A DNA stretch of 56,201 nucleotides from Deltaproteobacteria bacterium. GTDB taxonomy: Bacteria; Desulfobacterota; Binatia; UBA12015. Positions 5,059 to 56,201 of the stretch are shown here, piece by piece. Position numbers and translations under genes: made by a program. Location: positions 1 to 56,201 of the forward strand of contig JAJCZO010000263.1 in assembly GCA_029262355.1 (NCBI GenBank). The letters run 5' to 3'. How positions within the stretch are numbered: the first letter of the stretch is position 1; each line of letters begins with the position of its first letter. The notes under the pieces are model-generated. The model worked only from the letters and a program-made list of their open reading frames with translations, was not told where the DNA came from and searched no databases.

Positions 5059-5940
5059 TTAGGCCGCGGTGTGGTGCGACACGGCGGGGATCTCTCGGTC
5101 GTCCAACCTGAGGGCACACGCGGGTGTCGACGTTGATCCGTGGGGCGTCGTGGCCCGCGCGTCGGAGCGCTCGTTGTGCACCGGCGCAACGGTGACGTCG
5201 CGCATCATCAGCATGTCGCCCACGCGAGCCGAGGCGCCCTGATAGAAGCCGGTCTCGTGCTCATAGGTGAGTGGGTTGTTGAACGTGCCGAACAGCATGT
5301 CGAAGACCGGGAGGTCGGAGTAATTCCCGGCGTGAATTCCCCGCGCGTGGTGAACCGCATGTTGCTCGGGGCGCTGCACCAGGTATCCCAACCACCGCGG
5401 CGTCCTGACGTTGGTGTGCTGGAAGATCGCGAGCCACGTCGTGAACAGGAGGATCGCCGTGGCGGCCTGCGGCGGGACGCCGACGATGAATACCAGGCAC
5501 AGGCTTCCGAGCGCCGTCCAGCCGATCATGTCGAGAGGGCTGAAATAGAAAGTGCCCGTCGTGTCCATGCGCTCTGCGCTGTGATGCATCTGGTGGATCG
5601 TGCGGAAGAGCAGGTCGTGCTCGTGAATCAGGCGGTGGTACGCCCAGGCGCCCAGTTCGAAGACGAGCACGCCGGCGACCGTCGCTCCGGCGATACCCAA
5701 GCCGCTCAGGTCGAAGAGCTGGTAGGGGGCCAGAGATGCGTCCCAGAGCAGGGGCAAGTACGTGGAAAGGTAGAAGTAGACGGCGAAGGAGAGCAGTCCG
5801 CGAACGCGCCAGCCCCGAACCCGCGGTAAGGGCCGCGCTGGGGCGGCCTCCTCCCAGACCATCAGGGCGGCGTACATCGCCAGGACCGTCAGAGAGATGG
5901 GGTCGAGCAACACCTCGGCCGGCGTAGGTAGATCGGACAT
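5059..5940 (-). CDS. Fatty acid hydroxylase/sterol desaturase-superfamily membrane protein
   Basis: This 293-residue integral membrane enzyme has about five hydrophobic segments and the eight-His di-iron pattern of the superfamily (PF04116): HRLIHEHDLLFRTIHQMHHS (HxxxH then HxxHH), a QHTN motif, and HAVHHARG near the C-terminus. Such enzymes hydroxylate or desaturate lipid or carotenoid substrates with O2; the substrate here is unknown. The ATG at 5940 is preceded by AAGGAGG at ideal spacing, so the much longer upstream open frame is a shadow. The last 40 residues are unconserved. It is followed by the homocysteine methyltransferase gene. Confidence 0.88.
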   Translation of the reverse strand: MSDLPTPAEVLLDPISLTVLAMYAALMVWEEAAPARPLPRVRGWRVRGLLSFAVYFYLSTYLPLLWDASLAPYQLFDLSGLGIAGATVAGVLVFELGAWAYHRLIHEHDLLFRTIHQMHHSAERMDTTGTFYFSPLDMIGWTALGSLCLVFIVGVPPQAATAILLFTTWLAIFQHTNVRTPRWLGYLVQRPEQHAVHHARGIHAGNYSDLPVFDMLFGTFNNPLTYEHETGFYQGASARVGDMLMMRDVTVAPVHNERSDARATTPHGSTSTPACALRLDDREIPAVSHHTAA

Positions 5941-10300: not shown

Positions 10301-11389
10301 ATGAGGATCGATCGCGAGAAAGCTCGGACTCTACTCGATCGCATCGTAAACGAGCTCGGCGCGGCACTCACCGTGCCTCTCGTGGTGATCGGGGATCGCA
10401 TGGGTCTCTACCGCGACCTGGCGTCGAGCGGCCCCCTGTGCGCCGATGAACTCGCGCACCGGACCGGCGCGAACGCGCGTTACGTCCGTGAGTGGCTTGC
10501 CGCGCAGACGGCCGCAGGGTTCGTCGACTTCGACGCCGACGCCGACGCCTATTCCCTCTCGCCCGAGCAGGCAGCGATCTTCGCGAACGAATCGAGTCCG
10601 ATCTCGATGCAAGGCGGGTTCGAGCTCGCCGCTGGCGCCATCGGCGGCTATGAGCGCATCCTCGACGCGTTCCAATCGGGCGAGGGCGTCGGCTGGGCGA
10701 CCCAGCACTCCGACGTCTGCTCCGGCACGGGGCGCTTCTTTCGGCCCGCGTACGTCAGCCACTTGGTACATCACTGGCTTCCCGCCCTCGATGGCGTCGA
10801 GACACGACTTCGACACGGGGCGCGCGTGGCGGACGTGGGATGCGGTCTGGGGCACTCCACGCTTCTCATGGCGCGGGCGTTTCCGAAATCGACGTTTGTC
10901 GGCTTCGATGCGCACGCCGAATCGATCGAGTGCGCTCGACGAGACGCGCGAGCGGCGGGGCTTGCCCACCGCGTCCGGTTCGAGGTGGGCCTCGCCACGG
11001 ACTTTCCCGGTCGCGACTTGGATCTCGTCACGTTCTTGAACTGCCTCCACGACCTCGGGGATCCAGTCGGAGCCGCACGCCACGTGCGGGCAAGCCTCGC
11101 AGACGATGGTTGCTGGATGGTCGTCGAGCCGCGGGCCGGGGATCGCCTGGAGGACAACTGCACGCCGATCGGGCGGATGTTCTACGCGGCGTCCACACTC
11201 GTGTGCACGCCAGCGTCTCTCTCCGAGGATGTCGGCGCGGGGCTCGGGGCCCAGGCCGGCGAAGCAGCGCTACGGTCGGTGATCGAGGCGGCGGGCTTCG
11301 AGAACGTTCGGCGCGCCGCCGAAACGCCGTTCAGCCTCGTACTGGAGGCCCGACCCCCCCGATCCATCCGCCCTCAGGAAGACGCATGA
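10301..11389 (+). CDS. SAM-dependent methyltransferase with N-terminal winged helix (Rv2258c-like)
   Basis: The 362-residue protein has an N-terminal wHTH/dimerisation region (about 10-90; LVVIGDRMGLYRDL, YVREWLAAQTAAGFVDF) and a class I Rossmann methyltransferase domain with SAM motif VADVGCGLGHS (177-187), the acidic loop FVGFDAH, and the late motif FLNCLHDLGDP. The layout is that of Rv2258c-type enzymes. A paralogue at 33777 is similar over its whole length. Its stop overlaps the start of the ACP gene (ATGA), arguing for coupled translation and a role on an ACP-bound or related substrate. The substrate is unknown. Confidence 0.85.
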   Translation: MRIDREKARTLLDRIVNELGAALTVPLVVIGDRMGLYRDLASSGPLCADELAHRTGANARYVREWLAAQTAAGFVDFDADADAYSLSPEQAAIFANESSPISMQGGFELAAGAIGGYERILDAFQSGEGVGWATQHSDVCSGTGRFFRPAYVSHLVHHWLPALDGVETRLRHGARVADVGCGLGHSTLLMARAFPKSTFVGFDAHAESIECARRDARAAGLAHRVRFEVGLATDFPGRDLDLVTFLNCLHDLGDPVGAARHVRASLADDGCWMVVEPRAGDRLEDNCTPIGRMFYAASTLVCTPASLSEDVGAGLGAQAGEAALRSVIEAAGFENVRRAAETPFSLVLEARPPRSIRPQEDA

Positions 11390-22388: not shown

Positions 22389-23792
22389 TCAGCTCGCTCC
22401 CAACACTTCGGCCAGACCTTGTTCGAGGCACTCGAGGAACCGATCGGGATCGGGAACCGCGGCGCGGTCTGTGTTCACCGCGATGCCGAGGTCGCCGTTG
22501 TAACTGAACAAAGTGATGTTCGCGGCCGCTCCGGAGAGCGGTCCGAAGCCATAGATCTGCTCGACCATCGCGCCGCACACGTAGACCTCGAACGGCGGCC
22601 CCGGAACGTTGCTCGTGAGGAAGTCCACACCCTTCATCATCGACCCAAAGAGAGACGTCGTCATCGCTGTCGGGAAGCGATTGAGCAGAGACGCGACTTC
22701 GTCGACGATCGGAAGTGCGGGTTCGTCGCGCTGCTGGTGGACGAGATCGCGAATCGCCTTCATCCGCTCCGACGCATCCTTGATCTGCAAGGGCACGAGA
22801 AACCGGACGGGAACGAACTGGTTGCCCGCCTTGGTGGCCGTCGCCTCGGTGCGAAGATTGATCGGCATGCTCATGCGAAGCGCCTCGGCCGAGATCCCGT
22901 GCGCCTCGTGATAGAGCCGCATCCCACCGGCCATCGCCGCGACGAAGGCATCGTTCAACCGACCACCGGCCCGGTTCGCGGCCTCCTTGGCAGGCCGAAA
23001 CGGAACGCGCAGCGTGTCGAACCGCCACCGAGACGAACGCCCCTGCATGAGAGGGCTCGCCGGCTCCGAAACGGGCTGCAACAACCGACCGACGGAGCTC
23101 ACCGCTTCGGAGAGATCCTTCGCCGCCGTAACCGGATCGCGAGCGACTTCGGCTAGGCTCTCGCCGAGCGCGTTCCAGGTGCGCCGGACACGATCCGTCT
23201 GCTTGCGGCGCTCATAGTCGAGCGCATCGAGAAACCGCTCGGCCTGCGTCATCAGATGAACCGGCGGCGGGTCCGGCATCGGATCCAAGTCGCCGGACTC
23301 CGGCTCACGGCCCCGCTCGACCATGCTGGTGGTCATGCGCACGAGTCCCACACCGTCGGACAACGCATGGTGGAGCTTCATCACCAGCGCAGTTCGGCCG
23401 TCGGCGAGGCCGTCGATCAAACGCATCTCCCACAACGGGCGATCGCGATCGAACGCCTGCATCGCGAACAGCTGCGACGTGTCGAGGAGGTCGCGCATCG
23501 TCCCATCGCCCGCGAGCCGCGTGCGCCGAATGTGGTAGGCCAGTTCGAAGTCGGGATCGACCTCCCACCGGGGCGGCGACATCGAGAACTGGCTCGACGA
23601 CACCCGCTCACGCAGCCGAGGAACGATCCGAGAGGCTCGCTCGATCTTCTCCATCAAGCGCCCCTCATCGGGCATGGAGTCGAGAATCCATATCGACGTA
23701 ATCGTCGATCGAAGCTGCGGATCGCGCTCGATGTGCCACATGAGCGCGTCTGCGTCGCTCATCCGATTTTCAAACTGAAGTTCTTCGGACAT
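22389..23792 (-). CDS. WS/DGAT-family acyltransferase (wax ester/triacylglycerol synthase)
   Basis: The 467-residue product has the catalytic motif HHALSDG at 141-147 (HHxxxDG), an N-terminal SDADALMWHIE block, ADGRTALVMKLHHA context, LNDAFVAAMAGGMRLYH, PINLRTE, and the C-terminal NVPGPPFEVYVCGAMVEQIYGFGPLSG...LGIAVNTD. These are hallmarks of bacterial wax ester synthase/diacylglycerol acyltransferases, which make storage neutral lipids at the membrane. I start at ATG 23792 because GGCGGAGGC lies 8 bp upstream; the frame extends 18 bp further. A second member is at 39266. Confidence 0.92.
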   Translation of the reverse strand: MSEELQFENRMSDADALMWHIERDPQLRSTITSIWILDSMPDEGRLMEKIERASRIVPRLRERVSSSQFSMSPPRWEVDPDFELAYHIRRTRLAGDGTMRDLLDTSQLFAMQAFDRDRPLWEMRLIDGLADGRTALVMKLHHALSDGVGLVRMTTSMVERGREPESGDLDPMPDPPPVHLMTQAERFLDALDYERRKQTDRVRRTWNALGESLAEVARDPVTAAKDLSEAVSSVGRLLQPVSEPASPLMQGRSSRWRFDTLRVPFRPAKEAANRAGGRLNDAFVAAMAGGMRLYHEAHGISAEALRMSMPINLRTEATATKAGNQFVPVRFLVPLQIKDASERMKAIRDLVHQQRDEPALPIVDEVASLLNRFPTAMTTSLFGSMMKGVDFLTSNVPGPPFEVYVCGAMVEQIYGFGPLSGAAANITLFSYNGDLGIAVNTDRAAVPDPDRFLECLEQGLAEVLGAS

Positions 23793-23837
23793 CCGTATTG
23801 CCTCCGCCACGCGAGGATGGCCCCCCCCAACGACCGC

Positions 23838-29304: not shown

Positions 29305-32300
29305 TCAGCCCACCCGAGCCGCCGCGCGAAAACGCGCCTTGAGCCCGGGGTCGTCGAGCGAGGCCAATCCCTCGCCGATCAGCGCCTCTTTGCGACTGCC
29401 GGCCCGCTCGTGCTCGGCCCGGTCACCTCGTAGAAGCGCGAGGCTCGCCATGGCGCCGTGGGCTTGCCAGGCACCGCGCGGGTGCCTGATTCGCTCCGCG
29501 AGTGCCAGCGCTCGCTCCAGCGTCTCTCGCGCCTCGTCGAATCGCTCCAGCTTCACCAGCGACCGGCCACAGACGAGCAACGCCCGCGCCTCGATCTTTG
29601 GAGCACGATGGCGTTGCGCACCCTCGACCTCCGCCGATGCGGCCGCGAGGGCTCGGTCGGGCTCCCCTCGGTGGAGCTCGATCTCCGCCCGCGCATCCTG
29701 CGCGTGGAGCCGATACCGCCAGCGCATCCACGGATCCCCGGTACGGCGCAGCTCGTCTTCGATCGGCTCGATGTAAGCGAGCGCGCGAGGGAGGTCGCCC
29801 AGCTCGAGATGGTTGCGCGATAGGTTCACCCCCGCATTTCCGGTGATCTCGACGTCCTCGAGGTCGCGAGCAAGCACCAACGCCTGCTCGTTGTGCTCCC
29901 GCGCCTGCTCGACGCTTCCGATCTCGGCGTACGCCCAACCCAGGGTATTGAGCAGACGCCCCTTCCAGGCAATGTCGCCGATGCGATCACAGACGGCATA
30001 CGCCTCCTTCATCTGAGCGATCGCAGGACCGAACTTCCCGAGGCAACAAAGCGCCTTCCCGATGAACCAGGTCGGCCAAACGACGAGGTTCGCCATGCCC
30101 GTACGATTGCCCGCGCTCACGATACGGTCCGCGGTGAGGATCGCTTTGTCGTACTCTCCCTTCCATTCCTGCATCAGCATCACCGGGAACGACGTCAGAC
30201 CGATCGCGACGTCATCCCCGCTCGACACGGCGAGCTCGCTGGCCTCCGCGCAGAGCCTCTCGGCCGAGTCGAACTCCTCTTGGAGGATCACGCGATACTG
30301 CCCTTCGAGAGAAACGGCGTACGCCTCGCCGGCAAGGAGGTCGTGCTCGCGCGCATGGGCCTTCGTCGTGTCGATCAGTCGGATGCACGCGGCGTACTGG
30401 TGTGCCCAGAGGTGGGCCAGCCCTGCCAGACCCAGGAAGGCACCGCGAGCCGCCGGAGCGTCGTTGGCCGTCGCGGCGGCCCCCTCGAACGACCGTGCCG
30501 AGAGGGAGAACCGACTCATGTAGAAGGCGGTCGTGCCGAGAAGCTGGTAGATCTTGATCACCGCGTCGCGGGGTGCACCGTCGCCGAGACGCTCCGCGAT
30601 CGACAGAGCCACCTCGCAGTGATCGATCACTGCCTGATTCGCGTAAGACTCGCTAGCCTTCACGGCGGCCCGAGCATGATAGTCCAACGCCTTTTCCCAT
30701 TCGCATCCACGGGCGAAGTGATGCGCCAAGGCCTCGTAGTGCTCCGGAAGCCGATCGGCGTAGAGTTCCTCGATGGCGAGACCGATCGTGCGGTGCAGGT
30801 CCCGTCGCCGCTCCGCGACGACGCTCTCGTACGCAACCTCGTGTGTCAGCGCGTGCGTGAACATGTAGGCCAGCTCGGGATGGAGAGCCTTCTCGTAGAT
30901 CAGCTCCAGAGCCCGGAGCTCGGCCAGATGCGGCTCGACACCCCCGCCGGTTTCGACGATTCGGTCCAGCAAGCGCAGCGCGAACTCACGCCCGATCACC
31001 GAAGCAATCTGCATGGCCTGGCGCGCATTCACCGCGAGGCGATCGATACGCGCCAGCAGAACTTCTTGAATCGTGTCGGGCACGGCCACGTCTGCCAGAT
31101 CTCGCGTCAGTACGACCCTGCCGTCGTGACGACGAAGCGAGCCGTCCTCGAGAAGCGACTTGGTCACTTCCTCCACGAAGAACGGGTTCCCCTCGGCTTT
31201 GCTCGACACGAGGCGACTCACCTCGGGCGGTAGAACGCCGGCTCGAAGGAGTGATCCGGCCACCTCGGCGATCTCCCCGCCAGACAGCGGGCGCAGCGTC
31301 AGGCGAACATGATAGCTGCTATCGCCAAACGGGTGCCGATAGCCCGGCCGATACGAGCACACCAACAAGATGCGGCTCGCCGGAATCAACTCCGACAAGA
31401 AAGTCAGGAACTCCTCCGACGCAGAGTCGACCCAATGAAGATCCTCCGCAACCAGGACGAGAGGGCGACTTTCGGCGGCGCGCAGGAGGAGTGCGCGAAG
31501 CGCACGGAACAACTCGCTGCGCCTGCTCGCGGAGTCGAGCGACGCCACCGATTCATCGTTCTGACGCAAGGACAAGAGCTGGCGAAGGAAGGGCGCCGTC
31601 CAAGCGAGGTCTTCGCCAGCCGCCGCCACACCACGTTCGAGCTTCTCGGTCGCCTGGGCTTCGTCATCCCGGTCGTCGATTCGCATCAAACGCCGAACGG
31701 CGTCGGCGATCGGGAGGAAGGGCGAGGTGGCGCCGTACGCCGTACATCGACCCTCCACCCAAAGGTGATCGCGGTCTGCGATGCTCTCGCGAAGCTCCGC
31801 AATGAGGCGAGACTTACCGATGCCGGCATCGCCCACCACGAAAGCGAGCTGCCCTTGCGAGCCTTCCGCCGATGCGAACGCTTCTTGGAGAAACGTGATT
31901 TCGCCAGAGCGCCCCACGAAGCGGGCCTGCACCTGATCCAGTTGCTCCGGAAGGTCGCTCGCCGGAGCCGATCCGACCGTTGTCACCTGCACCCGATCGG
32001 CCTCTGCGGGCCCCAACCTCAGCTCACGCGCCGTCATGTTGACGATACCGCGCAATCGACGCGCCACGACCGGAGACAGCACGACTTCGCCAGCGCCCGC
32101 GTGCCCCAATAGTCGCTCCGGAAGAGACAGCACGTCGCCGATGGGCAGCACGTGCGCGGCAGGGTCCGACGTCGCCGTGTCGACACGCACCGCTCCCGCG
32201 TGCACGGCGATACGGCGCTCGGGTGCAGCTGCACCCTCCAAACGCTGGACGGCGGACGCCGCATGAACCGCACGCTGCGCGCCCTGCTCGAGCGCTTTCG

Positions 32301-33579
32301 GAATACCGAAGACCGCGACCATCCGCGAAGCGCTCTTCTGCACGAGCACGCCGCCGAATCCGCGCACCTTCGCCTCGACCTCCTGCTGCCAATGGGTCGT
32401 AGCCGTCCACGGCTCCTGGCCTGCCTCTCCAGCAACGTGGTCGGGAAACGCAAGATCGATCGCAAGAACGGCGACCGCCTTCTGCTCCCAAGTGGGCAGG
32501 GGTGCGGGCTCGACCCTGGACGGGGCAGGTTCGGCGTCGAACGCCTTCGGAGCACGACCGACGTCTGCATCGCTCAGGTTGGGCCGTTCGATGCCATACC
32601 GGCGCATCCGATATCGCAGGGCGTTGCGCCCGAGCCCGAGAAGCCGAGCAGCCGCCACGACGTTTCCGCCTGAGCGCGCGAGAGCATCTCGGATGGCGTC
32701 CGGCTCGTCGGAGGTCGGGGTTGGACTCACGGTCGCAGCAGGCGGGCCGACCGGTTCCCCCACGGGCGCCGTCGCAGACGGTGGCGATCCGTCGAGAGGC
32801 GTCGCCAAGCGTTCCAAGGTCTCCGCTTCGAGCTCTCCGCGCGGCCCCATCAGCGTAACCCGTTCGATGAGGTGAGAGAGTTCCCGGACGTTTCCGGACC
32901 ACGGGTGCGCGGCGAGCCACTCCTCGGCCGACGGGGTGAGACGACGTGGCTCCAGTGCGTGGGAATCCGAAAACACTTCGAGAAAGTGCTCGGCGAGACG
33001 AACGGCGTCACCGTCTCGGTCTCGCAGCGGCGGGATCTCGATCACGACGACAGCGAGTCGGTGGTAGAGATCGGGGCGGAAGTCGCCCTCGGCAACCATC
33101 GCCTTCAAGTCTCTCTGCGTCGCAGCAACGAGCTTTACGTCCACCTGCCGCGGCTCGTGCGCGCCGAGCCGCCGCACGCGCTTCTCCTCGATCGCCTTCA
33201 GCAACTTGCTCTGAAGCGTGATCGAGAGCGCGTCGACCTCGTCGAGAAACAGGGTCCCGCCCGAAGCCGCCTCGAACAATCCAGCTTTGGCTCGACGAGC
33301 GTCCGTGAAGGCCCCGGCCTCAAAGCCGAACAACTCCGCCTCGAGCATGTTCTCGGGGATGGCCGCGCAGTTCACGTCGATCAGCGGTGCCGCGTGACGC
33401 GGACCGCTCTCGTGCATGACACGCGCCACCAGCCCCTTGCCCGTGCCGGTCTCCCCGAGGAGGAGCACCGTAGGGACATGCGGATTGCGCGGAGCATCGA
33501 ACGACGCGAGATGGCGGATCTGATCTCGCAGCGCCGCCATCGACGCGGACTCGCCCAGGATCGGCTGAGGGGCCACCAT
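29305..33579 (-). CDS. Giant regulator: sigma-54 AAA+ domain, Fis HTH, cyclase-like domain, STAND/AAA ATPase, TPRs
   Basis: The 1,424-residue protein begins with a sigma-54 activator AAA+ domain (residues 8-262): Walker A GETGTGKG 42-49, GAFTDA 89-94 in place of GAFTGA, Walker B TLFLDE, WSGNVREL. A Fis-type HTH follows (295-332; NVVAAARLLGLGRNALRYRMRR). Residues 365-515 resemble a degenerate class III nucleotide cyclase (VAVLAIDLAFPD, GIPKALEQGAQRAVHAASAV). A second ATPase of AAA_16/STAND type starts near 555 (VGRSGEITFL; GDAGIGKS 583-590; VLVAEDLHWVD), and TPR-like repeats fill about 960-1420. There is no receiver domain, so the long C-terminal half is the likely sensor. It is divergent from a methyltransferase gene that has a sigma-54 promoter. 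Confidence 0.88.
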   Translation of the reverse strand: MVAPQPILGESASMAALRDQIRHLASFDAPRNPHVPTVLLLGETGTGKGLVARVMHESGPRHAAPLIDVNCAAIPENMLEAELFGFEAGAFTDARRAKAGLFEAASGGTLFLDEVDALSITLQSKLLKAIEEKRVRRLGAHEPRQVDVKLVAATQRDLKAMVAEGDFRPDLYHRLAVVVIEIPPLRDRDGDAVRLAEHFLEVFSDSHALEPRRLTPSAEEWLAAHPWSGNVRELSHLIERVTLMGPRGELEAETLERLATPLDGSPPSATAPVGEPVGPPAATVSPTPTSDEPDAIRDALARSGGNVVAAARLLGLGRNALRYRMRRYGIERPNLSDADVGRAPKAFDAEPAPSRVEPAPLPTWEQKAVAVLAIDLAFPDHVAGEAGQEPWTATTHWQQEVEAKVRGFGGVLVQKSASRMVAVFGIPKALEQGAQRAVHAASAVQRLEGAAAPERRIAVHAGAVRVDTATSDPAAHVLPIGDVLSLPERLLGHAGAGEVVLSPVVARRLRGIVNMTARELRLGPAEADRVQVTTVGSAPASDLPEQLDQVQARFVGRSGEITFLQEAFASAEGSQGQLAFVVGDAGIGKSRLIAELRESIADRDHLWVEGRCTAYGATSPFLPIADAVRRLMRIDDRDDEAQATEKLERGVAAAGEDLAWTAPFLRQLLSLRQNDESVASLDSASRRSELFRALRALLLRAAESRPLVLVAEDLHWVDSASEEFLTFLSELIPASRILLVCSYRPGYRHPFGDSSYHVRLTLRPLSGGEIAEVAGSLLRAGVLPPEVSRLVSSKAEGNPFFVEEVTKSLLEDGSLRRHDGRVVLTRDLADVAVPDTIQEVLLARIDRLAVNARQAMQIASVIGREFALRLLDRIVETGGGVEPHLAELRALELIYEKALHPELAYMFTHALTHEVAYESVVAERRRDLHRTIGLAIEELYADRLPEHYEALAHHFARGCEWEKALDYHARAAVKASESYANQAVIDHCEVALSIAERLGDGAPRDAVIKIYQLLGTTAFYMSRFSLSARSFEGAAATANDAPAARGAFLGLAGLAHLWAHQYAACIRLIDTTKAHAREHDLLAGEAYAVSLEGQYRVILQEEFDSAERLCAEASELAVSSGDDVAIGLTSFPVMLMQEWKGEYDKAILTADRIVSAGNRTGMANLVVWPTWFIGKALCCLGKFGPAIAQMKEAYAVCDRIGDIAWKGRLLNTLGWAYAEIGSVEQAREHNEQALVLARDLEDVEITGNAGVNLSRNHLELGDLPRALAYIEPIEDELRRTGDPWMRWRYRLHAQDARAEIELHRGEPDRALAAASAEVEGAQRHRAPKIEARALLVCGRSLVKLERFDEARETLERALALAERIRHPRGAWQAHGAMASLALLRGDRAEHERAGSRKEALIGEGLASLDDPGLKARFRAAARVG

Positions 33580-33591
33580 GGGCCATTGTGA

Positions 33592-33621
33592 ACCACTTTT
33601 GGCCCTTGGGCCACAAGTGGT
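33592..33621. promoter_or_regulatory. 30-bp dyad, likely activator-binding site
   Basis: Outer arms ACCACTT/AAGTGGT and inner arms GGCCC/GGGCC form one hyphenated palindrome with 2-bp spacers, and GGGCCA/TGGCCC flank it. It begins 13 bp upstream of the regulator start and ends 77 bp before the -24 element of the divergent methyltransferase promoter. That is the normal distance for an enhancer-binding-protein site. It could also mediate autorepression of the regulator gene. Confidence 0.65.
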
Positions 33622-33698
33622 CGTGGCCCGGCCCACCCCGGGCTACCGAGGGCCATCCTCAATCCCTGATTTTACTCGGGAAATTTCCCTCCCGCCGC

Positions 33699-33713
33699 TG
33701 GCACTCACCTTGC
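33699..33713 (+). promoter_or_regulatory. Sigma-54 (-24/-12) promoter for the methyltransferase gene
   Basis: TGGCACTCACCTTGC matches the sigma-54 consensus TGGCAC-N5-TTGC exactly in both boxes and spacing. Transcription should begin near 33725, about 50 bp before the ATG at 33777. A CCCGC-GAA-GCGGG mini-hairpin (33748-33760) lies in the leader, followed by AAGGAGA. Confidence 0.75.
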
Positions 33714-33776
33714 GAGAAGAGGGCTCCAACCAACGACCCACACGAATCCCGCGAAGCGGGCTCAAGGAGAGGCACC

Positions 33777-34835
33777 ATGGAACAAATCAACGAAGAGAAG
33801 GTCCACGCGTTCGTCGGCAAAGCCATGGGTGATCTCGGAGCAGCCCTGACCTCCTCGCTCGTCGTCATCGGCGACAAGCTCGGCCTCTACCGCGCGATGG
33901 CGGACTCGAAGCCGATCACGTCGGCCGAGCTCGCAGAGAAGACCGAGACGAGCGAACGCTGTTGTCGCGAGTGGCTATCCGCCCAGGCCGCGGCCGGCTA
34001 CGTCGACTACGACGCCACTTCGGGCCGCTTCACCCTGCCCGCGGAGCACGCCATTGCGCTCACGAACGAGGAGAGCCCCGCCTGCGTCATCGGTGGCTTC
34101 CAGGCCATGACGGCCGCGATGCGCGCCGAGCCGAAGGTCGCCGAGGCATTCAAGCACGGCAACGGAGTCGGCTGGCACGAACACGACCGCAACCTGTTCG
34201 TCGGCACCGAGCGCTTCTTCCGGCCCGGCTACAACGCCAGCCTCGTCGACTCCTGGATTCCCGCGCTCGAGGGCGCGCGGGAGAAGCTGGAACGCGGAGC
34301 AACGATGGCCGACATCGGTTGCGGACATGGTGCCTCGACGATCATCCTCGCCAAGGCGTTTCCCAACTCGACGTTCGTCGGCTTCGACTACCACGAGGAT
34401 TCGGTGCTGCGTGCGCGCGAGCGCGCCGAGCAAGCCGGTGTTGCCGACCGAGTCACCTTCGAGGTCTCCTCGGCCGACAGCTTCGCGGGCAAATACGATC
34501 TCGTCGCCTGCTTCGACTGCCTGCATGACATGGGCGACCCCGTGGGCGCGGCGCGGCACATCAAGAGTGCCCTGAACCCCGACGGCAACTGGCTGCTGGT
34601 CGAGCCCTACGCGGGCGATGCGGTCGAGGAGAACCTGAATCCGGTCGGGCGGATCTTCTACTCGGTATCGACCTTGGTCTGCACGCAGGCAGGCTTGTCG
34701 CAGGACTGCGGTCATGCGCTCGGCGCTCAGGCGGGAGAGGCCCAGCTCGGCGGGGTCATTCGCGAGGCCGGCTTCACTCGCTTCCGCCGCGCAGCCGAGA
34801 CACCGTTCAACCTCGTCTTCGACGTCCGGCCTTAG
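33777..34835 (+). CDS. SAM-dependent methyltransferase (Rv2258c-like), sigma-54 controlled
   Basis: The 352-residue protein has an N-terminal wHTH/dimerisation segment (LVVIGDKLGLYRAM, CCREWLSAQAAAGYVDY) and a Rossmann domain with SAM motif MADIGCGHGAS (177-187), FVGFDYHEDS and ACFDCLHDMGDP. It aligns over its full length with the methyltransferase at 10301, including the RFFRPGY and HALGAQAGEA blocks. AAGGAGAGGCACC precedes the ATG. It is alone in its transcription unit, behind a sigma-54 promoter and opposite a sigma-54 activator, which argues for conditional expression. The methyl acceptor is unknown. Confidence 0.88.
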   Translation: MEQINEEKVHAFVGKAMGDLGAALTSSLVVIGDKLGLYRAMADSKPITSAELAEKTETSERCCREWLSAQAAAGYVDYDATSGRFTLPAEHAIALTNEESPACVIGGFQAMTAAMRAEPKVAEAFKHGNGVGWHEHDRNLFVGTERFFRPGYNASLVDSWIPALEGAREKLERGATMADIGCGHGASTIILAKAFPNSTFVGFDYHEDSVLRARERAEQAGVADRVTFEVSSADSFAGKYDLVACFDCLHDMGDPVGAARHIKSALNPDGNWLLVEPYAGDAVEENLNPVGRIFYSVSTLVCTQAGLSQDCGHALGAQAGEAQLGGVIREAGFTRFRRAAETPFNLVFDVRP

Positions 34836-35064: not shown

Positions 35065-37308
35065 ATGCCCGCCTCCGAACTACGAACCCACCTGCGCACC
35101 TGCCCGCTCTGCGAGGCGATGTGCGGGCTCGAAGTCACGACCGAGGGCGACCAGGTCACGCGCATTCGCCCCGACCGCGAGGACGTCTGGAGCAAGGGAT
35201 ACATCTGCCCCAAGGGCGCCGTTCTTGCCGACCTCCACCACGACCCCGATCGACTGCGCACCCCTCTCATTCGTGACGGCAAGCAATGGCGCGAGGTGAG
35301 TTGGGACGAAGCGTTCGAAACGATCGCCCAACGGCTTCACCCGGTGCTCGAGAGCCACGGGATCGGCGCCGTAACCGCCTACATCGGCAACCCGACGGCG
35401 CACAACTTCTCGCTCTCACGCTACGTCGGGGCGTTCATGCCGATGTCGACTCTGCCGATCATCTACTCTGCCGGGACGGTCGACCAATGGCCGAAGAACG
35501 TCTCGAGCGCACTGATGTACGGCGGCATGTGGACGATTCCCACGCCCGACCTCGATCGGACCGACTACCTCCTGGTTCTCGGCGCGAACCCGAGTGCTTC
35601 GCAGGGCAGCCTGCTCGCGGCGGCGGACATCCTGGGTCGGTTCGACGCGATCCTCGCACGCAGCGGCCGGATCGTCGTCATCGACCCCCGCCGCACCGCG
35701 ACGGTGGACCACGCCAGCGAATGGGTTCCGATTCAGCCCGGGACGGACGCCGCGCTTCTTGCCGCGATGGTGAACGTCCTGTTCGCCGAAGGGCTCGTAG
35801 ACCCCGGCCGATTGGCGGAACTCGCGAACGGAATCGATCGCGTCCAAGGGCTGTGCCGAGCGTTCACTCCGCAGAGCGTGGAAGCCTCGTGCGCAATCCC
35901 CGCCGAGACGATCCGCCGCATCACCCGAGAGTTGGCCGCAGCAAAGACTGCGGCCGTCTACGGACGCATTGGCACGTGCAACCAGGAGTTCGGCACACTC
36001 GCATCGTGGCTCGTCGACGTCGTGAACTTCCTCACCGGGAACCTCGACCGCCCCGGCGGGTCGATGTTCGCGAATCCCATCGCGTGGTCTCTCACGACGA
36101 TCCACCCGCCCGACCAACCGCCGGGCTTCGCGTTCGGCCGTTGGAAGAGCCGCGTACGTGGCGCGCCCGAAGTGCTCGGACAGTATCCCGTCTCGTGTTT
36201 GGCCGAAGAAATCTCGACACCCGGCGAGGGACAGATCAAGGCGCTCATCACGATCGCAGGCAACCCGGTGATCAGTTCGCCCGACGCCGGCAAGCTCGAC
36301 GCGGCCCTCCCGCTGCTCGACTGTATGGTTTCGGTCGACAACTACCTGAACGAAACGACGCGACACGCCGACGTGATCCTTCCCGGCCTCTCGCCCTTCG
36401 AGCAACCGCACTACGACGAGCTGCTGTGGTCGTGGGCGGTGCGCAACGCCGGCAACTACTCCGAGGCAATCTTCCCGCCCGAGCCCGGCCGGCTCGCCGA
36501 GTGGGAAATCCTGCTGACGCTCGCAGCGATCATCTCAGGCGCGAAGCCGAGCGAGATCGACTGCCACGTTCTCGACGACCTCTACTTCAGCGGACTCGTG
36601 GGGCTCATCGTGGCCGACGAATCATCGGCCATCGCAGGCCGCGACCCCGGTGAGATCGTGCGCATGACGGGGGGAACGGGGCCCGATCGGCTGCTCGACT
36701 TCACGATCCGAAGCGGGCCCTACGGCGATCACTACGAAAGGAACACCGACGGGCTCACGCTCGCAAAGCTGAGAGAACGGCCGCACGGCGTCGACATGGG
36801 CGCACTGGAGCCCCGGATTCCGGACATTTTGCGAACGCCGTCGGGCAAAATCGAGCTCGCGCCGGAGCACATCGTGGCCGACCTCCCGCGGCTCGAGGCA
36901 CGACTCGGCAGGCGTGAGGACGGCTTGGTTCTGGTGAGCCGTCGCCACCTTCGGTCGAACAACTCGTGGATGCACAACGTCGAAAAGCTCGTGCGCGGCC
37001 GAGATCGGTGCACCTTGATGATCCACCCCGACGACGCCGCGCGCATCGGCATCCGCGAAGGGGGTACGGCTCGGGTCGCCTCGAAGTCCGGAACCATCGA
37101 GGCACCCGTCGAGATCACCGACGAGATGATGCCGGGCGTCGTGTGCCTTCCCCACGGGTGGGGACACGACCGCGAGGGGATTCGGCTGAACGTCGCCACG
37201 CGTCACGCAGGCGTGAACAACAACCTCATCGCTCCTGGAGATCTCGTGGACGTTCCGTCGGGGAACGCCGTCGTGAATGGCATCCCCGTCGACGTTACAC
37301 CTGCCTGA
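35065..37308 (+). CDS. Molybdopterin-dependent oxidoreductase, [4Fe-4S] type (DMSO reductase family)
   Basis: The 747-residue protein starts with the iron-sulfur motif Cys13-x2-Cys16-x3-Cys20-x27-Cys48 (CPLCEAMC...CPKG). It has VSWDEAFETIAQRL, YIGNPTAHN, LLVLGANPSASQGS, VIDPRRTATVDHASEW, and a C-terminal cofactor-binding domain (MIHPDDAARIGIREGGTARVASKSG ... GVNNNLIAPGDLVD). No Tat signal precedes the Fe-S motif, so it is cytoplasmic. No electron-transfer or membrane subunit is adjacent, unlike formate dehydrogenase or nitrate reductase operons. It resembles stand-alone assimilatory or formate-dehydrogenase-like oxidoreductases; the substrate is not readable. Confidence 0.9.
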   Translation: MPASELRTHLRTCPLCEAMCGLEVTTEGDQVTRIRPDREDVWSKGYICPKGAVLADLHHDPDRLRTPLIRDGKQWREVSWDEAFETIAQRLHPVLESHGIGAVTAYIGNPTAHNFSLSRYVGAFMPMSTLPIIYSAGTVDQWPKNVSSALMYGGMWTIPTPDLDRTDYLLVLGANPSASQGSLLAAADILGRFDAILARSGRIVVIDPRRTATVDHASEWVPIQPGTDAALLAAMVNVLFAEGLVDPGRLAELANGIDRVQGLCRAFTPQSVEASCAIPAETIRRITRELAAAKTAAVYGRIGTCNQEFGTLASWLVDVVNFLTGNLDRPGGSMFANPIAWSLTTIHPPDQPPGFAFGRWKSRVRGAPEVLGQYPVSCLAEEISTPGEGQIKALITIAGNPVISSPDAGKLDAALPLLDCMVSVDNYLNETTRHADVILPGLSPFEQPHYDELLWSWAVRNAGNYSEAIFPPEPGRLAEWEILLTLAAIISGAKPSEIDCHVLDDLYFSGLVGLIVADESSAIAGRDPGEIVRMTGGTGPDRLLDFTIRSGPYGDHYERNTDGLTLAKLRERPHGVDMGALEPRIPDILRTPSGKIELAPEHIVADLPRLEARLGRREDGLVLVSRRHLRSNNSWMHNVEKLVRGRDRCTLMIHPDDAARIGIREGGTARVASKSGTIEAPVEITDEMMPGVVCLPHGWGHDREGIRLNVATRHAGVNNNLIAPGDLVDVPSGNAVVNGIPVDVTPA

Positions 37309-39107: not shown

Positions 39108-39265
39108 CGACCCTTTTGTACCGCGACGAAGCCATTCCGACCAGCCGACGCACGACCAGGAAGAGCCTCTTCGGCGTACTTGACCGACCGACCCGACCCC
39201 GATTCCGTTGAATCCCCATAGGCCGTATGCTGGCGTCGGGTGTTCCTTGGGACTCGGGAGGATTG

Positions 39266-40726
39266 ATGTCGGCCTATAGCTACGATCGCATGTCTGCGCT
39301 GGACTACTCGTTCCTCTCGGCCGAGAAGGGCGGCGTCCGCATGCACATCGCAGCGGTCCAGATCTTCGACGCCGGACCGATGCGAACCGAAAGCCGCGGC
39401 ATCGACATCGAGGCGGTGCGCGGCGCGACCGAGTCCGTGCTGCACCTGATTCCGCGCTACCGCCAGCGCCTGGCGTGGACACCCCTCGAGGGCCGACCGG
39501 TCTGGGTCGACGACGCCGAGTTCAACCTCGACTACCACATTCGGCACACGAGTCTCCCCCTCCCGGGTGACGAAGAGCAGCTGAAGCACTTCGCAGCTCG
39601 CATCATGGCACAGCCGCTCGATCGCACACGGCCCCTTTGGGAAATGTGGGTCGTCGAGGGACTCGCAGGCGGCGATCGCTTCGCCATCGTGAGCAAGATG
39701 CACCACTGCATGATGGACGGCAGCTCCGGGGTCGACCTCGCACACATCCTGCTCTCGCCCGAGGCCCGGGCCGAGCCGCCGAAGCCCGTTCCGTACATGC
39801 CCCGCCCGATTCCGAGCGGCTTCGAACTGCTGCGCGACACGGTGACTCGCGCCATACGGGCGCCCCTCAATGCGGTACGCGGGCTACAGGAGTTCGCCAG
39901 GGCAACGAGCGATCTCGGGGACGAGATCCGCGTACGAGCTCAGGCGTTGAGCGAGCTCGCCGGCTGGGTGGTGCAAGGCGCGTCCGACACGCCGATGAAC
40001 GGCAAGCTCGGGCCACACCGCCGCTTCGACTGGCTCGAGATGTCTCTCGACGACGTGAGGTCGCTGAGCAAACGCCTCGATTGCACCGTAAACGACGTAA
40101 TCCTCGCCACGGTGAGCGGTGCCGTACGCACTTTCCTGATCCATCGACGCGTCGATCCGGCGCGGATCGACTTTCGCGTATCGGCACCCGTGGGCGTCCG
40201 CAGCGATGAAGACCACCTCAGGCCGGGCAACCGCGTCTCGTCCTGGATCGTCAAGCTGCCGATCGACAAGGCAAATCCGCTCGAGCGATTGCGGGGCATC
40301 CAAGACGTCACCCGCAAACTCCAGGCCTCCAACCAGGCGCTCGGCGTCGAAATGATGATGACGATGGCCGAATGGACGCCATCCGTGGTGCTCTCGCTGG
40401 GCTCCCGCGCGGCATCGGGACCAATCAACATGATCGTCACGAACGTACCCGGGGCACAGATTCCACTCTACCTACTCGGCGCACGGCTCCTCGAAGCCTT
40501 CCCGCTCGTGCCGCTTCTCGAGAACACCGGCGTGGGCGTCGGGCTGTTCAGCTACGACGGTAAGCTCTGCTGGGGCTTCAACGGCGAGTACGAGCGCATG
40601 GCTGACCTTCGCCAGTTCGTGCATGCCGTAAAGGCGGCGTTCGATGAACTCCTCGCCACAGCGCCGAATGTGGCCGCGGTGAGCACCTTGCCGGCGCCCG
40701 AGAAGCTGGTCGCGTCAGCAAAGTAG
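39266..40726 (+). CDS. WS/DGAT-family acyltransferase, second copy
   Basis: The 486-residue product has HHCMMDG at 146-152 as the HHxxxDG catalytic motif, RMSALDYSFLSAE at the start, LDRTRPLWEMWVVEGL, VNDVILATVSGAVRTFL, SAPVGVRSD and NMIVTNVPGAQIPLYLLGARL with GLFSYDGKLCWGFNGE at the end. It is clearly related to, but distinct from, the copy at 22389. Such enzymes make wax esters or triacylglycerols. ATG 39266 follows GGGAGGATTG, so the upstream frame to 39227 is not used. It is convergent with the alpha/beta hydrolase gene 10 bp away, which could process the lipid product. Confidence 0.92.
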   Translation: MSAYSYDRMSALDYSFLSAEKGGVRMHIAAVQIFDAGPMRTESRGIDIEAVRGATESVLHLIPRYRQRLAWTPLEGRPVWVDDAEFNLDYHIRHTSLPLPGDEEQLKHFAARIMAQPLDRTRPLWEMWVVEGLAGGDRFAIVSKMHHCMMDGSSGVDLAHILLSPEARAEPPKPVPYMPRPIPSGFELLRDTVTRAIRAPLNAVRGLQEFARATSDLGDEIRVRAQALSELAGWVVQGASDTPMNGKLGPHRRFDWLEMSLDDVRSLSKRLDCTVNDVILATVSGAVRTFLIHRRVDPARIDFRVSAPVGVRSDEDHLRPGNRVSSWIVKLPIDKANPLERLRGIQDVTRKLQASNQALGVEMMMTMAEWTPSVVLSLGSRAASGPINMIVTNVPGAQIPLYLLGARLLEAFPLVPLLENTGVGVGLFSYDGKLCWGFNGEYERMADLRQFVHAVKAAFDELLATAPNVAAVSTLPAPEKLVASAK

Positions 40727-55700: not shown

Positions 55701-56201
55701 ATGACCCGCCCCAGCGAAGAACTGCAGACGAACGCCCCTACGGCCGAGTTCATGGGCCTGGTTGGGAGCCACCCTTCGATGCAGCGCGTGTTCGAGTTGA
55801 TCCGAAAGGTAGGCCCGTCGCAGAGCGCGGTGCTCATCACGGGCGAGAGCGGGACGGGCAAGGAGCTGGTAGCCCGTGCGCTGCACGACCTCTCCGGGCG
55901 AACGTCGCGCAACTTCGTACCCGTGCATTGTGGTGCGATCCCCGAGGAACTCCTCGAAAGTGAGCTCTTCGGTCATGTGAAGGGGGCCTTCACGGGCGCC
56001 CTCGCTGCCCGCACCGGTCGCTTCCAACTCGCCAACGGCGGCAGCATCTTTCTGGACGAAATCGGCGAAATGAGCCCGCGGTTCCAGGTGAAGCTCCTTC
56101 GCGTGCTCGAAGACGGATCGTTCGAGCCCGTCGGCGTTGGCAAAGACCACGCCAAGGATTTCCAGGTTAGGGTTGCGGTGCTTGCGCACGTCCGCGATGT
56201 C
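55701..56201 (+). CDS. Sigma-54-dependent transcriptional activator, N-terminal part (runs off right edge)
   Basis: The 167 codons present form the first half of a sigma-54 AAA+ domain: MGLVGSHPSMQRVFELIRKVG, Walker A GESGTGKE, PVHCGAIPEELLESELFGHVKGAFTGA (intact GAFTGA loop), and Walker B IFLDEIGEM. It has no N-terminal receiver or GAF domain, so control may be by a C-terminal module or a partner. AGGAG lies 7 bp before the ATG. After FEPVG the sequence (VGKDHAKDFQVRVAVLAHVRD) departs from the usual 'DVRvIaATnrdL'. This could be natural divergence or a lesion and cannot be settled at the edge. Confidence 0.9.
   Translation, partial: MTRPSEELQTNAPTAEFMGLVGSHPSMQRVFELIRKVGPSQSAVLITGESGTGKELVARALHDLSGRTSRNFVPVHCGAIPEELLESELFGHVKGAFTGALAARTGRFQLANGGSIFLDEIGEMSPRFQVKLLRVLEDGSFEPVGVGKDHAKDFQVRVAVLAHVRDV

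Follow-up and report, generated by a model that had tools for sequence, protein, structure and literature searches.

A candidate sigma-54 switch between two divergent genes

The window of this study, 56,201 nucleotides of contig JAJCZO010000263.1 of a deltaproteobacterium, encodes a giant sigma-54-type activator that is arranged divergently from the gene of an S-adenosylmethionine (SAM) methyltransferase. In the gap between both genes, we have found a pair of short palindromic boxes and a -24/-12 promoter element, which recur together with the activator and a methyltransferase homologue in ten loci. With a probability of roughly 0.8, this arrangement constitutes a dedicated single-site sigma-54 switch, where the activator, positioned at the twin box, would drive the divergent methyltransferase via the -24/-12 promoter. 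Sequence comparison links activator, operator, promoter and target as one set, and the arrangement of the locus is real and not a product of chance. Its main features are as follows:

29305–33579, reverse strand: giant sigma-54 activator of 1,424 residues (open reading frame from the ATG at 33579, Pfam matches, full-length relatives)
33777–34835, forward strand: SAM methyltransferase of 352 residues, Rv2258c/TnmJ-like (open reading frame, Pfam matches, matches to solved structures)
33592–33621, no strand: twin-box enhancer or operator (dyad search, conservation in relatives, single occurrence in the genome)
33699–33713, forward strand: -24/-12 promoter TGGCAC-N5-TTGC (motif scan, present at the aligned place in 10/10 loci)

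The original prediction had described a sigma-54-type activator, a 30-bp dyad and a perfect -24/-12 element directed towards the methyltransferase, and all three were recovered in our analysis. The reading frame of the activator matches Sigma54_activat (PF00158, residues 7–180) with an E-value of 3e-61. The dyad contains arms of 14 nucleotides, which pair at 13 of 14 positions around a loop of two nucleotides, and when arms of this length are searched with no more than one mismatch and loops of 0–6 nucleotides, it is unique in the window, compared to a mean of 0.15 expected from 20 order-1 Markov sequences. Within the window, the promoter element TGGCACTCACCTTGC is the sole perfect match, where 0.08 would be expected and where 8 of 100 shuffles contain one. 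It is separated from the dyad by 77 bases and predicts a transcription start near 33725 with a leader of 52 nucleotides.

The dyad encompasses two boxes, CCACTTTTGG at 33593–33602 and CCACAAGTGG at 33611–33620, with 8 bp in between. While a conserved operator is indeed found at this place, it is better described by two boxes of 10 bp, whose centres are 18 bp apart, than by the single dyad initially proposed, because each box is itself palindromic and because the boxes in two loci (L153, L154) are not mirror images. The latter keep CCA-N4-TGG twice, with the mirror symmetry broken at 3 of 10 box positions, and we have thus dismissed the 30-bp dyad as the conserved unit. The remaining loci contain boxes that come close to mirror images of each other.

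Conservation of the operator and the promoter

At a threshold of E 1e-200, the activator was identified in 9 of 148 genomes from the class, including the genome of the window. A sample of 395 genomes from the whole phylum yielded it in two, which again belong to this class. Its distribution is patchy, since it was not found at 1e-110 in the three other genomes of the genus of the window. An activator with 73% identity to that of the window (L066) was among the matches listed of a contig search, and the nearest activator records, among the matches listed, belong to bacterium Co_bin.94, Deltaproteobacteria and Myxococcota. The ten loci compared are the window, L066, L149–L155 and L174; L067, which is the same contig as that of G018, was counted once.

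A methyltransferase homologue is located opposite the activator in each of these loci, directly outside the genus g23 and with one gene in between within it (L150, L151, L152 and L174). The twin box CCA-N4-TGG-N8-CCA-N4-TGG occupies the divergent gap of 10/10 loci and is exact in eight, and the -24/-12 element, which faces the first gene in all ten gaps, is exact in seven. Activator, operator, promoter and target, whose co-conservation had been proposed as a check, were thus found together throughout, and a loss of the TGGCAC and TTGC boxes in relatives, which we looked for as evidence to the contrary, did not emerge, the boxes being conserved instead. When each locus is scored with matrices built without its own lineage and compared to 300 mononucleotide shuffles per gap, the operator is placed correctly in every locus (23.3–44.1 bits versus at most 14.0 for the best shuffle) and the promoter is likewise recovered in all ten, in eight of them with scores above all its shuffles.

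The close relationship between the window and L066 and the origin of four loci from one genus could be taken as signs of chance motifs, or of functionless inheritance in closely related intergenic DNA. This explanation is hardly credible in light of the sequences separating both elements: in the six of nine other loci that were compared to the window, the operators are 71–86% identical, whereas the spacers share 57% in the near relative L066 and 20–35% in the other five. Moreover, the operator is absent upstream of 23/23 examined methyltransferase homologues without adjacent activator, with a best score of 5.1 bits. These originate from 40 methyltransferase matches, of which 9 are located beside the activator and 31 are not; among the latter, 22 loci and the paralogue in the window were scored over 450 bp of upstream sequence, reduced to 181 bp in L185. 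In two of these cases (L163 and the paralogue of the window), the genome contains the activator at another place. In L179, another sigma-54 domain fragment is located upstream, and in L159, TGGCACGGCTCGTGC is found 59 bp upstream of the methyltransferase as a possible remnant promoter, in a locus containing neither twin box nor activator. In a tree of 33 rows, the ten activator-linked methyltransferases fall into one supported group of 14, which includes four unlinked ones, and the activator-linked label requires four changes. We read this as one origin, after which activator and operator were jointly lost several times, with the tree leaving this direction unproven.

It is general knowledge that many enhancer-binding proteins serve several targets, and the activator might in analogy run a wider regulon, where the neighbouring gene would be one target of many. 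Genome-wide counts render this very unlikely. The exact twin box is found once in the 7.77-Mb genome of the window. Among nine holder genomes, seven contain it once, always at the activator locus, and the same applies to the genome of L066, which gives 8 of 10 holder genomes overall, whereas G051 and G104, which carry an altered second box, contain no exact copy genome-wide. Similarly, a search for the longer operator with up to 3 mismatches retrieved the own locus in 6 of 9 holders, and none of the nine contains a further site at this threshold. These counts refer to draft genomes and would overlook single boxes or more divergent ones. The reversed twin box, used as control, yields 34 matches in 21 genomes (9 holders and 12 non-holders); since the pattern itself is not rare, it is the place of the twin box that constitutes the evidence.

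The distances from the end of the operator to the -24 element amount to 78, 79, 47, 59, 48, 57, 76, 58, 55 and 59 bp in the ten loci. They cluster near 47.5, 58 and 78 bp, which is close to whole helical turns, and for a period of 10.5 we obtain R 0.705 with p about 0.007 (n=10), or p about 0.03 for 7 lineages after averaging near relatives by hand. This indication of helical phasing of the operator and the promoter is suggestive only.

Several observations weigh against a dedicated switch. The second box is imperfect in L151 and L174, the -24/-12 element deviates by one or two bases in L149, L153 and L155, and the 18 bp between the box centres do not amount to complete helical turns. A single genus contributes four of the ten loci, and one of 12 non-holder genomes also contains one twin box. 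For the periodicity, seven periods were evaluated on related loci, and the best is near 10.25. Promoter scores of L163 (11.9) and L159 (11.3), where the activator is not adjacent, overlap slightly with those of the weakest holders L153 (10.6) and L149 (10.9), the former two obtained with the full matrix and the latter two with leave-lineage-out matrices. The 7.77-Mb genome contains 26 perfect matches to the promoter word compared to 21 of a reversed control; we have therefore rejected the -24/-12 match as stand-alone evidence, and its weight rests on the conservation in relatives. Finally, in L155 (G043) the methyltransferase gene next to the activator contains internal stops. These are located at about 5640–5850, where the start of the methyltransferase recurs in inverted orientation; it would be either an assembly artefact or a broken copy, and a stop-free copy is encoded elsewhere in the same genome (L163).

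Proposed mechanism of activation

The protein architecture, the conserved operator and promoter, the single operator per genome and the presence of RpoN (TIGR02395 above cut-off in 9/9 holder genomes tested, namely those other than that of L066) are apparent in the sequences. Binding, dimer number, ATP-driven activation, signal and substrate are inferred, and the steps of ring assembly, binding and signalling are modelled on enhancer-binding and STAND proteins. The activator would bind the twin box with its Fis-type helix-turn-helix (HTH) domain, probably as two dimers, with the end of this enhancer located 47–79 bp upstream of the -24/-12 promoter. A signal might then relieve or assemble the C-terminal half, which contains a degenerate cyclase-like domain, a STAND ATPase and TPR repeats, thereby permitting the AAA+ domains to form a ring, whose GAFT loop would remodel the RpoN polymerase for ATP-driven opening of the promoter. 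As output, the divergent methyltransferase would be transcribed, or mddA and the methyltransferase in the genus g23.

In the window, the first box is located 13 bp from the ATG of the activator, and a bound protein could thus block its own expression. The twin box might consequently act mainly as autoregulatory repressor site of the activator gene, with the methyltransferase being controlled otherwise. We consider this improbable, since the distance between the box and the activator start varies widely between loci, whereas the distances to the promoter fall into few helically related classes and the -24/-12 element is kept together with the box. Autoregulation and activation of the methyltransferase may also coexist at the same site.

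Architecture of the activator

The activator is composed of the following parts, all on the reverse strand:

32809–33561: sigma-54 AAA+ domain and lid, residues 7–257, with Walker A GETGTGKG, GAFTDA loop and Walker B (PF00158, PF25601)
32587–32700: Fis-type HTH, residues 294–331 (PF02954, match 294–328)
31930–32487: degenerate class III cyclase-like domain, residues 365–550 (alignment with L062, L063, L068–L070)
31360–31923: AAA_16 STAND-type NTPase, residues 553–740 (PF13191, E 1e-29), with GDAGIGKS and EDLHWVD
29308–30639: C-terminal TPR region, about residues 981–1424 (PF13424 above cut-off at residues 1172–1237)

In the Pfam scan, the sigma-54 domain is followed by the lid and by HTH_8 (E 6e-12), and AAA_16 is succeeded by TPR models towards the C-terminus, with PF17874 and single TPR models in this region being below their cut-offs. 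The scan revealed no N-terminal sensor domain. The original prediction had assigned the reading of a signal to a STAND/TPR half. AAA_16 and TPR are indeed located C-terminal to the HTH, where the P-loop NTPase and ensuing repeat superstructure that define STAND proteins are found, and this part additionally includes a degenerate cyclase-like domain. The C-terminal half may plausibly read a signal.

An alignment of nine activators, which omits G104, whose activator is divided between two unjoined contigs (L174, L147), illustrates the conservation of its functional motifs. The Walker motifs are kept in all nine, with a variant GATGTGKG in L150, and GAFTDA is invariant, thus preserving the GAFT core with a change in the fifth position of GAFTGA. 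Among eight stretches compared, the HTH is best conserved with a mean pairwise identity of 76%. Conversely, the catalytic GDG motif that characterizes class III nucleotide cyclases is replaced by (A/P/S)-S-R in 9/9 activators, while being retained in five related cyclase proteins (L062, L063, L068–L070), and the domain is for that reason almost surely inactive. We have accordingly discarded the idea of an active cyclase. Residues 365–550 show no Pfam match of their own at E 0.01, and Guanylate_cyc was found in L062, L068 and L070. AlphaFold2 modelling of residues 340–560 with two sequences gave a mean predicted local distance difference test score of 41 and was not used. In the simplest history, where the direction is our assumption, a sigma-54 AAA+/HTH module would have replaced the N-terminal part of a zinc-ribbon/cyclase-type protein, whose cyclase activity was lost. 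Within its own genome, the activator shows 59 matches, with only itself matched over the full length. Among the open-access papers listed in searches for such an architecture, none presents it in title or abstract.

The methyltransferase and its possible relation to thiol methylation

The methyltransferase of the window matches Methyltransf_31 (E 6e-20) with an Rv2258c-like winged-helix N-terminal domain in Pfam, and nearly full-length matches to structures of Rv2258c/TnmJ (PDB 5f8c, 8g5s) were obtained with E-values of 2e-46 and 5e-60. The assignment of one methyltransferase as target applies to the window, whereas in g23 the promoter precedes mddA, encoding methanethiol S-methyltransferase, and then the methyltransferase homologue. 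The first gene passes the MddA model NF045656 (cut-off 270 bits) with 310 bits in L150, 294 in L151, 295 in L152 and 322.9 in G104, whereas the methyltransferase of the window shows no match to this model at E 0.001. Since mddA and the methyltransferase share a promoter in g23, this organization suggests a role of the latter in thiol or sulfide methylation.

The activator could thus be part of a volatile-thiol or sulfide switch, a tentative and rather doubtful proposal, where the STAND/TPR half would sense H2S, methanethiol or a related thiol to turn on S-methylation. In one genus, this would be performed by MddA together with a soluble partner, and elsewhere by the soluble Rv2258c-like enzyme on its own. 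Among the papers listed in a search for regulators of mddA, one addresses methanethiol and quorum sensing in Vibrio harveyi by its title. For mdd genes, H2S and/or methanethiol are reported as inducers (PMC12904073). The same paper gives 210 residues for MddM1 and 204 for MddM2, compared to 352 in the protein of the window, and we have thus rejected an identity with either.

Control of mddA by the same operator outside g23 was equally dismissed, as none of 24 other mddA loci with upstream sequence contains the twin box. The scan covered 30 loci from 33 matches, with L213–L215 providing no upstream sequence; of the three matches outside the scan, G105:C151 is the L150 locus. The -24/-12 element and a box or boxes were found in L205, L211 and L212, where mddA is part of the divergent unit. 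Among the 24 others, L187, L192, L199 and L203 contain one lone box each and L186 and L188 a loose promoter-like match. The own mddA of the genome of the window (L196) is preceded by neither twin box nor -24/-12 element. Other sigma-54 activator domains are located near mddA in two further genomes (L240 3679–6543 in L190/L240; L202 3095–3655), and sigma-54 control of mddA may thus have arisen more than once.

Further genes were noted in the surroundings:

10301–11389, forward strand: another methyltransferase from this family (52% identity to the first), preceded by neither activator nor twin box nor -24/-12 element
35065–37308, forward strand: molybdopterin oxidoreductase, 229 bp downstream of the methyltransferase
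22389–23810, reverse strand, and 39227–40726, forward strand: two wax ester synthase/diacylglycerol acyltransferases
55758–56201, forward strand: first part of a further sigma-54 activator domain, truncated at the end of the window

In two genomes, a similar gene, presumably isocitrate lyase/phosphoenolpyruvate mutase-like, adjoins the methyltransferase (L153 6819–7757, L234 5329–6276).

Comparison with known systems

The locus offers a compact activator-operator pair with predicted binding site, promoter, start and target in ten genomes, whose mechanism and signal are both testable. The sensor-like half following the HTH, with its STAND and degenerate cyclase domains, would widen the known building parts of enhancer-binding proteins. 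If the relation to mddA were true, the activator would be a candidate regulator of the microbial conversion of methanethiol to dimethyl sulfide, and in case of a thiol switch, a regulator of dimethyl sulfide formation, with the Rv2258c-like enzyme being an unrecognised thiol methyltransferase.

The soluble enzyme shares the type of its winged-helix domain with Rv2258c in the Rv2258c/TnmJ family. The relation to MddA, MddM1 and MddM2 is provided by mddA as first gene of the divergent unit in g23; the protein of the window, with its winged-helix domain, differs from MddA, which passages of PMC12904073 describe as integral membrane enzyme.

The activator itself aligns at residues 394–998, its cyclase-AAA segment, with the TOMM kinase/cyclase fusion TIGR03903, from which it is distinguished by a score of 264.5 bits compared to a cut-off of 705.75 and by a sigma-54 module in place of a kinase at the N-terminus. 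Its C-terminal two thirds resemble zinc-ribbon/class III cyclase/AAA_16/TPR proteins (L062, L063, L068–L070), with 43–49% identity over the cyclase-AAA part. L062, L068 and L070, which were scanned, contain a double zinc ribbon, Guanylate_cyc, AAA_16 and TPR, the zinc ribbon being located where the activator carries its sigma-54 module. Activators of the LevR/DagR type likewise place their regulatory part C-terminal to the AAA+ domain. These have an N-terminal HTH and PRD/EII domains, whereas the activator contains a Fis-type HTH and STAND/TPR, and its match to DagR is weak (93 bits). Among the matches listed (25 of 31 families), it reaches none of the curated NCBIfam cut-offs.

The closest correspondence is to NtrC/NifA/NorR-type enhancer-binding proteins (PF00158 and PF02954), which share the AAA+ motor with a GAFT loop followed by a Fis-type HTH, and equally a conserved upstream site, a -24/-12 promoter and RpoN in the genome. 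In contrast to these, the activator carries no N-terminal regulatory domain, its loop reads GAFTDA, and the HTH is succeeded by about 1,090 residues that comprise pseudocyclase, STAND NTPase and TPR. By its sequence features, we thus classify the activator as a variant among bacterial enhancer-binding proteins with a dedicated enhancer.

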